This document shows positions 4,721 through 54,906 of a stretch of DNA of 64,000 nucleotides, piece after piece. The notes under the pieces were generated by a model. The model worked only from the letters and a program-made list of their open reading frames with translations, did no database searches and was not told where the DNA came from. The position numbers were made by a program, and so were the translations under genes. The DNA comes from Bacteroidota bacterium (GTDB taxonomy: Bacteria; Bacteroidota; Bacteroidia; CAIKAF01). How positions within the stretch are numbered: position 1 is the first letter of the stretch; the number at the start of each line of letters is the position of its first letter. Location: contig VGMT01000013.1 of the NCBI GenBank assembly GCA_016866335.1, forward strand, positions 1 to 64,000, in the 5' to 3' direction.

Positions 4721-5742
4721 TAGGCAAGAACATGCTGGGCACCTGGCTGAGGCTTATGTGCCGGCCGGGGTTTTAAGCCCAACAGGGCAAACATGGCCGC
4801 ATCCGATTGGAATTCAGGATTGGGCGTAGTCAGCAATTTATCGCCGGTAAAAATGGAATTTGCTCCAGCCATAAAGCAAAGAGCTTGTTCTGCGACAGAC
4901 AGATCGGTTCGTCCTGCCGACAAGCGGACCATGCTTCCGGGCATCGCAATTCGAGCCACAGCAATGGTTCTGAGCATTTCCCAAAAAGGCAATTTTTCTT
5001 GGTCTTGCAAGGGAGTTCCTTTCACCGCCACCAAGGTATTGATGGGCACCGATTCTGGGTGTACTGGCAAGGTAGCCAGGGTGTGCAACAAACCGACCCG
5101 GTCTTTTGATTCTTCGCCCATTCCAACAATGCCTCCGCAGCATACATTCAATCCTGCGTCGCGCACATTTTCAAGGGTATTTAAACGGTCTTGGTAGGTT
5201 CGGGTGCCGATGACCTTATCGTAGTATTCGGGCGAGGTATCCAAATTATGGTTGTAGGAGTGCAGCCCCGCCTCTTTCAATCGGTCGGCTTGGTCTTTGG
5301 TAAGCATCCCCAGCGTGCAGCACACTTCCATGCCTAAGGCATTTACCTGCTTTACTGCATCAACAATTCGATCAAAATGAACGTTGTCTTTCACCTCTCG
5401 CCAAGCAGCGCCCATGCAAAACCGACTGCTGCCGGCTTCTTTGGCTTCCATGGCCGAGGTAATAATTTCAGCCACATTTACGAGAGGAGTTCCCTTCACG
5501 TCGGTTTGGTAGCGTGCGGCTTGGGGGCAATACGAACAATCTTCAGGGCAACCGCCTGTTTTCACACTCAACAGGGTACTCATTTGCACCTCTGCTCCAT
5601 CGTGCCAAGCGCGGTGAACCAAAGCGGCATCAAACACCAAATCCATAAGTGGTTTGTTGTATAAGGCCGAAATTTCTTCGCGTGTCCAGGTATTTCGTAT
5701 GGCATTCGATTGCCGAATAGCCGATTTCATGCTTTCGTTCAT
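4720..5742 (-). CDS. bioB: Biotin synthase
   Basis: Radical-SAM enzyme inserting sulfur into dethiobiotin. The cluster motif is C-x3-C-x2-C in [12 protein letters not shown] (Cys65, 69, 72), followed by family segments such as [10 protein letters not shown] and [10 protein letters not shown]. Length is 340 residues. Two starts fit: ATG at 5742, or the Met four codons later (5730). A TATCTTTG box ends 4 nt before the first ATG, so a transcript from it would be leaderless or would use the second Met. First gene of bioB-bioF-bioD-bioA-KAS. Confidence 0.96.
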
Positions 5743-54123: not shown

Positions 54124-54537
54124 CTACTTTTTAGTAGAGGTTGCTTGTTCAACAAGCAATTCGTCTGGAATTTCCATAGGCGTATCTACCGGCTGAACCT
54201 TTTTATTTGTCAGCAAGATTTCTCGAGCTAGAATATCGGTGTACCAGCGGCTTTCCCCCTGGGTATCGGTGTAGTTCGAATACCGCAGCTGTCCCTCAAT
54301 GGCAACGGCATCGCCCTTTTTAAGTTTCAACTTTAAACCGGCTATCTCGGCAACCTTTCCGAACATAACAATGGAATGCCATTGTACATTTTCTTTTGAT
54401 TCGCCTGAAGCAGTGGTGTAGGTATCCGAGGTGGCCATCCTGAATTTTACCAAGGTTCCTCCGTTTTCTAAGGTTTTTACCTCTGGATCCATTCCAAGAT
54501 TTCCAAGAAGTCGAACTGAATTTTTAATGTTGTTCAT
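54124..54537 (-). CDS. ssb: Single-stranded DNA-binding protein
   Basis: OB-fold protein of 137 residues starting NNIKNSVRLLGNLGMDPEV, with VQWHSIVMFGKVAEIA and AIEGQLRYSNYTDTQGESRWYTDI. The C-terminal tail is short and basic (TSTKK) rather than the acidic DDDIPF tip of housekeeping SSB, so binding of partner proteins may differ; a second ssb may exist elsewhere. An elaborate palindromic site lies 44-91 bp upstream. Confidence 0.92.
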   Translation of the reverse strand: MNNIKNSVRLLGNLGMDPEVKTLENGGTLVKFRMATSDTYTTASGESKENVQWHSIVMFGKVAEIAGLKLKLKKGDAVAIEGQLRYSNYTDTQGESRWYTDILAREILLTNKKVQPVDTPMEIPDELLVEQATSTKK

Positions 54538-54580
54538 GTTTCAAAGTTTAGTACAGCACAAAGTTCAGGTAGAGGGGTAT

Positions 54581-54628
54581 AATTATCCGTTTGGTAAACG
54601 TTTAATAAACGTTTAAAAACGGATAATT
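54581..54628. promoter_or_regulatory. Nested palindromic site upstream of ssb
   Basis: AATTATCCGTTT (54581-54592) and AAACGGATAATT (54617-54628) form a perfect 12-bp inverted repeat. Between them are two copies of the 10-bp palindrome TAAACGTTTA at 54595-54604 and 54606-54615, 11 bp apart, so they face the same side of the helix. It lies 44-91 bp before the ssb ATG and has operator-like symmetry. A replication or iteron role is possible but unsupported. Confidence 0.7.
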
Positions 54629-54759
54629 TCCAGAACCCTTATCAGCAAAGGGATAGCCGAGGACAGATTTCATCAAGGAAATTGAAAAATGCAAACGGGT
54701 AATTCCAAAAACCACCATTCAGCCCTTGGTGAAATGGGAAGGGTTAAATCTAAAAGTAG

Positions 54760-54906
54760 GCCCGCGGCAGGGATTGAGTAAGGTAGCCCGGCAGGTTTGC
54801 TGACAGGGCACCGCCAGCCGCGCATGCGACCTTGGGAGCCCGCGCAAGGCGGCTGGGGCCGTGGCAGCAAACGGCGGCCTACCTACGAAAGCCCGGCTGC
54901 CGCCCA
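54760..54906 (-). repeat. GC-rich hairpin element, copy E
   Basis: Read on the minus strand, it starts TTTGGGCGGCAGCCGGGCTT, nearly as copy A, and ends TCAATCCCTGCCGC. The core GCTCC-CAAG-GTCGC is at 54826-54839. Outer arms 54778-54802 and 54865-54886 pair over about 20 bp (CAGCAAAC.../...GTTTGCTG). An inner stem CCAGCCGC (54814-54821) with GCGGCTGG (54849-54856) encloses the core. Unlike most copies it lies in a divergent spacer between ssb and a peptidase gene. Confidence 0.84.

Follow-up and report, generated by a model that had tools for sequence, protein, structure and literature searches.

Does the elaborate palindrome that lies upstream of a short ssb gene in this Bacteroidota genome act as a regulatory site and, if so, for which gene and which function? 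In the window (the whole stretch of 64,000 nucleotides that was analysed), ssb occupies positions 54124–54537 of the minus strand. A perfect 12-bp inverted repeat stands ahead of it, with arms AATTATCCGTTT (54581–54592) and AAACGGATAATT (54617–54628) separated by a 24-bp spacer, in which two perfect TAAACGTTTA palindromes (54595–54604 and 54606–54615) follow each other with a period of 11 bp. These elements are exact and far beyond chance: 0.05 copies of TAAACGTTTA are expected in the window, and none of 100 shuffles contained two or more. The first-pass annotation of this DNA had reported the geometry, its improbability and a distance of 44–91 bp to ssb. All these points were confirmed, the coordinates of the inverted repeat exactly; given the position and strand of ssb, the distance is correct relative to its start codon.

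Coupling of the array to a promoter

On the minus strand, the sequence, the shuffles and the match to a motif model (R1, below) delimit an operator array (54581–54628), in which outer inverted arms TTATCCGTT and AACGGATAA flank two AAACGTTT units with an 11-bp period. The array is thus made of 10–11-bp units, (A)AACGNNTA, the last of which lies 22 nt ahead of a -7 box of the Bacteroidota type, whose consensus is TAnnTTTG (PMC9723704). In the window, this promoter-proximal unit, AACGGATAA (54583–54591, minus strand), is found at the place of a -33 box, and exactly 22 nt separate its ACGGAT from the TTTG of the -7-type box GAACTTTG (54559–54566, minus strand). The TTTG -33 box itself is absent from the array promoters, the array unit sitting there instead. 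More generally, copies that face a gene show a last unit (AACGGATAA or close), 16–17 nt and then A(C/A)CTTTG. Before an amidase gene of the window genome (G000) and of G001, the copies have TACCTTGC, in agreement with the SM5 box TAnnTTGY (PMC9723704). The distance between unit and -7 box is near constant in all 22 of the genus promoters listed.

A promoter role of the array is therefore well supported, and the fixed position of a unit at -33 suggests an activator; the array would activate rather than repress. It had been proposed that the site controls either ssb or the divergent gene. The first part holds, as the -7 box is oriented toward ssb only; control of the divergent gene was rejected, no -7 box being found at the fixed distance on the opposite side. 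The palindrome was also rejected as a hairpin or terminator, because its place is ahead of the -7 box and the form found across the phylum is not palindromic. Nor does the idea of a small iteron set fit this site: iterons are repeats at a replication origin or rep gene, whereas the setting here is chromosomal and the distance to the -7 box is fixed.

Conservation across the phylum

For the wider search, 20 short SSBs served as queries against genome contigs and led to 80 named loci in several orders (Flavobacteriaceae, Chitinophagaceae, Cyclobacteriaceae, Sphingobacteriaceae and Bacteroidales). The pattern NCG[AG]NT-N22-TTTG[CT] was found upstream of short ssb in 57 of the 80, a few of which (L254, L276) look like chance matches; dinucleotide shuffles of the same loci gave 1.2 matches on average and 4 at most. 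Although the gap was allowed to vary from 20 to 24, it was 22 in 57 out of 57 matching loci. The distances from one CG to another are almost only 10 (79 observed vs. 11 expected), 11, 20, 21, 30, 31 and 41 bp, which supports the earlier proposal that the units lie on one face of the helix. The consensus of the named loci is TTTnnAAACGnnTACAnACGnTTACAAACGAAAnTAAnTnnTTnnnAACCGAnT-N22-TTTGC, and its units are direct repeats. The pair of palindromes, which had been taken for the basic element, finds no support in this role: elsewhere in the phylum the repeats are direct and without palindrome, and before comEA of the window genome a single 23-bp inverted pair is present. On these sequence comparisons, the palindrome in the window is a lineage-specific (genus) form of the direct-repeat array.

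We then built a sequence-only model (R1) from 49 of the named loci. It recovers the site in the window (54555–54624, minus strand; 18.2 bits, E = 8e-4 in 420 kb), as well as the ssb promoters of G002 (E = 4e-8) and G005 (E = 3.5e-7). Applied to 39 ssb loci of relatives, R1 finds an array ahead of almost every short ssb gene (30 genomes), G008 and G038 being short-ssb genomes without a detectable one, and at none of the 10 tail-bearing or other ssb-like loci, including the other ssb of the window genome. With R1 and the strict pattern together, 14 named genomes have essentially one strong site each, always at short ssb. Fulvivirga has two strong R1 sites, both before short ssb genes; in Fulvivirga imtechensis (L333, L335) there are two short SSB genes, each with its own array. 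A second strong array in G031 (L394:2694-2787, on G031:C8) is located within a long intergenic region; a G-rich hairpin and a palindromic repeat come after it, and it faces no gene. No array was found in Vaginella, which we take to be a member of the family of Riemerella. Upstream of ssb, the array is thus a conserved, promoter-coupled, helically phased operator.

A short SSB and the genus-level targets

The product of ssb in the window is a second SSB, a paralogue of 137 aa that ends in ...QATSTKK and lacks the DDLPF acidic tip present in the other SSB of many relatives. It resembles SsbB of Bacillus subtilis, the competence SSB, which is also a second SSB without acidic C-terminal tip; the promoter architecture differs between the two, and the role in uptake of the SSB described here is putative. 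In about nine named loci (L223, L224, L228, L230, L244, L253, L255, L267, L275), recQ follows the short ssb on the same strand.

The genus comparison covered six genomes, including G001, G002, G005 and the window genome, a 2.45-Mb draft in 62 contigs for which the genome-wide picture comes from pattern searches. In all six, the array precedes ssb at the same spacing, with one base of play; every close relative has retained the site. In all six it also stands before a gene for a ComEA-like helix-hairpin-helix (HHH) membrane protein of 280–320 aa. Identification as ComEA comes from a match of the G005 orthologue to TIGR01259 (E = 4e-7, below the family cut-off), and the protein of the window genome weakly matches a DprA SAM domain. 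The comEA array has been retained despite a protein identity of only ~35% between the window genome and G002 or G005; in the window genome it is reduced to the minimal 23-bp inverted pair, TTATCCGTT-N5-AACGGCTAT. Two further targets were found. A secreted protein that combines Amidase_2 and CUB domains with a weak T9SS tail has the array in the four genomes looked at, and a protein of 145–149 aa adjoining ligA has it in all six (L103:5167-5613, plus strand; L123, L191, L192, L193, L196). The latter has no Pfam or NCBIfam match and, from its promoter, is a candidate new competence gene. The comEA and 149-aa genes start a few nt past TTTG, so that their mRNAs may be leaderless.

The first-pass annotation had also suggested that presence before other replication or repair genes would define a regulon, and the array does stand before other DNA-processing genes. 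By contrast, comEC and dprA, whose membership would be expected of a competence regulon, have no array within 1.5 kb in the six genomes; behind dprA of the window genome there is an antisense-facing copy only. Outside the genus, no target other than ssb was found in 14 scanned genomes, and comEA has no array there.

A probable competence regulon versus a response to DNA damage

The best explanation, which we hold to be rather probable, is that the array is an activator-type promoter element of a natural-competence regulon. Directly behind it lie a competence-type SSB without acidic tip and, in six out of six genus genomes, a DNA-uptake gene of the comEA (HHH) type; it is this pair under one site, the hallmark of such a regulon, that makes a competence role likely. 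As comEC and dprA of the genus are without array, the regulon would be partial, and outside the genus, where only ssb has the array, the link to competence is carried solely by the SSB type. The lack of an array in Vaginella and the ~10 copies of the window genome that face no gene or a convergent 3' end also tell against this explanation. We infer that competence would be the condition and that one common regulator would act. A DNA-binding protein would occupy successive 10–11-bp units, one per helix turn and on one DNA face. The last unit falls at -33, and the protein would recruit sigma-A RNA polymerase to the -7 box 22 nt further on and switch on the short tail-less SSB, which would guard incoming single-stranded DNA. 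In the genus, the same switch would also serve comEA for DNA uptake, the secreted peptidoglycan amidase and the 149-aa protein.

In a transposon screen of Riemerella anatipestifer, transformation required, among others, a periplasmic HHH protein, ComEC, DprA, ComF and RecA, and mutation of an N-acetylmuramoyl-L-alanine amidase strongly lowered it (PMC8459023); the comparison with the HHH protein and amidase of the genus is one of protein type, not of orthology. That paper gives no regulatory motif (the word "promoter" occurs 0 times), and our literature search found no paper on how transformation genes of Bacteroidota are switched on.

Competence boxes of other bacteria include the ComK box, the CRP-S site and the pneumococcal ComE/cin box. 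They share with the array the presence of one site type before a single-strand-protecting SSB and DNA-uptake genes, but their sequences differ, and the array is long, helically phased and fused to a TAnnTTTG -7 box, and does not include comEC or dprA. Sites of the OmpR/PhoB family are tandem 11-bp direct repeats, with head-to-tail units of about one helix turn that overlap the -35 region as here; their sequence is unlike that of the array.

The array could instead be the repressor or activator site of repair genes (ssb, recQ, uvrC, an Lhr-type helicase and the gene beside ligA) in an SOS-like DNA-damage regulon, a reading that we regard as unlikely. The recQ genes behind short ssb at the nine or so loci mentioned above would agree with it, as would TTATCCGTTTTAAAAACGGATAA, a perfect palindrome immediately ahead of recQ in G002 and G005 (L133:5181-5203, L134:7493-7515), but a -7 box at the fixed distance is missing there. 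In the window genome and G001, the interval between uvrC and the adjacent gene holds a copy, but its promoter is directed away from uvrC, which was therefore rejected as a target. A copy ahead of an Lhr-like helicase gene in G001 fits a damage response, whereas neither comEA nor the gene of a cell-wall amidase serves repair. Moreover, known LexA boxes are single palindromes, unlike the phased direct-repeat array found across the phylum.

Additional copies of the array

In the window genome as a whole, TAAACGTTTA occurs 17 times, vs. 9 for a reversed control, and several occurrences form 11-bp pairs. The common element around these copies is TTATCCGTTTG-(TAAACGTTTA)n-..AAACGGATAA, where n ranges from 1 to 3; since n varies among copies, the unit is a helix-turn repeat of variable number. 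About 10 further copies in the window genome mostly face no gene or the 3' end of a convergent gene. In the window genome and G001, leader-type copies consist of the array, a -7 box and then a short G-rich hairpin leader (GGGGGGCCGTTTTCCCCC...CGAATCGGTAGC), which in most cases extends into a convergent gene at its 3' end. They were located in the former at L104 ~5250-5324, L105 ~5330-5364, L106 ~5285, L110 ~2452 and L111 ~4941 and in the latter in L115–L121, with three in tandem in L121, in each case with no same-direction gene nearby. Either small-RNA genes or promoter repeats that have spread could account for these copies. In G001, one leader-type copy lies immediately before the Lhr-like helicase gene (L127:608-3234) and another ahead of a possible defence operon that encodes a McrB-like ATPase (L116:1525-5146). 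A GC-rich dispersed repeat (CCGCGGCAGGGATTGA...GGCGGCTGGGGCCG...) occupies positions 54759–54905 of the window, between ssb and the next gene, and pieces of it are also present in L106, L111 and L138.

Such copies raise the question of whether the element is mainly a dispersed repeat (REP or MITE-like) with an incidental promoter, the ssb copy being one insertion. The ~10 extra copies in the window genome and ~20 in G001, some of which have common flanks and a leader with a G-rich hairpin, others being in tandem or close to contig ends, would be expected from such a repeat. However, the copies before ssb are orthologues throughout the phylum whose flanks are not conserved and whose spacing to the -7 box is exact, the single-copy comEA and 149-aa genes keep the array in six genomes, and neither shared flanks nor random placement apply to the ssb, comEA, 149-aa and amidase copies. 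For the ssb copy, insertion is thus largely refuted, and we give the dispersed-repeat explanation as a whole little credence. The same copies bear on the test proposed in the first-pass annotation, according to which a functional site should be kept in close relatives and not be scattered at random in the genome. The outcome is mixed: close relatives all retain it, but the window genome also contains scattered extra copies, most of which keep this promoter geometry. Such dispersed copies seem to have arisen by secondary spread of the promoter.

In G002 and G005, the array and its promoter recur ahead of RHS-type cassettes, which include small putative lipoprotein or immunity genes (four copies in L403, G002:C2:1-12000, and two in L404, G005:C12:360000-372500). 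In other bacteria, competence and toxins are jointly controlled; the RHS-cassette arrays recall such joint control, which might by analogy exist here too.

Candidate binding proteins

If the array is a competence-type promoter, which protein would bind it? One candidate is a protein of 117–125 aa with a treble-clef zinc motif, whose gene is divergent from short ssb in ~22 named loci according to gene-neighbour clustering (e.g. L290:5485-5850, minus strand; alignment A3; copy of the window genome at G000:C41:14482). It is DUF2116-like in 17 of 20 members, by weak matches (best E = 9e-6). The protein was found in 29 of the 30 genomes with short SSB vs. 2 of the 10 without it (4 of 10 counting weak partial matches), an association with Fisher P values of 5e-6 and 3e-4, respectively, that ignore shared descent. 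It is present in every relative with a detected array. Its confidently predicted structure (pLDDT 91) comprises a zinc ribbon, a long helix and a small beta domain, and a structure search with this model found no solved structure at E < 0.001. In the window genome, no array precedes the treble-clef gene, and autoregulation there was rejected on this ground. This candidate regulator could equally be a co-regulated partner. We propose only tentatively, partly from a predicted model, that it might be the binder and a new family of Bacteroidota competence activators that would oligomerise along the helically phased units.

Alternatively, the same competence-type promoter could be bound by a LytTR response regulator of the ComE/BrsR/HdrR type. 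LytTR regulators control competence and bacteriocins in Streptococcus mutans, and each of their sites places 9-bp direct repeats, 12 bp apart, directly ahead of the promoter, as in ACCGCTTAT for BrsR (PMC6193735). The array resembles the HdrR and BrsR sites (PMC6193735) in having direct repeats ~21 bp apart directly upstream of a promoter, its units also being 20/21 bp apart and reading ACCGANTA or AACGTTTAT. A LytTR site is, however, defined as two 9-bp repeats with 11–13 bp between them, and here the 20/21-bp spacing comes with intermediate units every 10–11 bp, which are not part of such sites. In addition, no LytTR domain was found in two genomes with the array, G031 and G007 (both 99% complete). 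A LytTR regulator is therefore disfavoured as the binder, and we judge it very improbable.

The view that no specific protein is needed, 10-bp-phased A-tracts aiding the polymerase through intrinsic curvature or as an UP-element, draws on the AAA runs phased at 10–11 bp beside the promoter but is hardly plausible, as the best conserved unit columns include C and G (C29, C50 and G51 invariant, G30 at least 90%) and the A runs in the window are mostly of three bases.

Significance for Bacteroidota

Natural transformation is already known in a few Bacteroidota. The array speaks for a mode of controlling DNA uptake that had not been described before and, since it combines a phylum-wide promoter signature with a named set of targets, makes the binding protein, the conditions and the competent species directly testable. 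Its signature would provide a simple bioinformatic marker.
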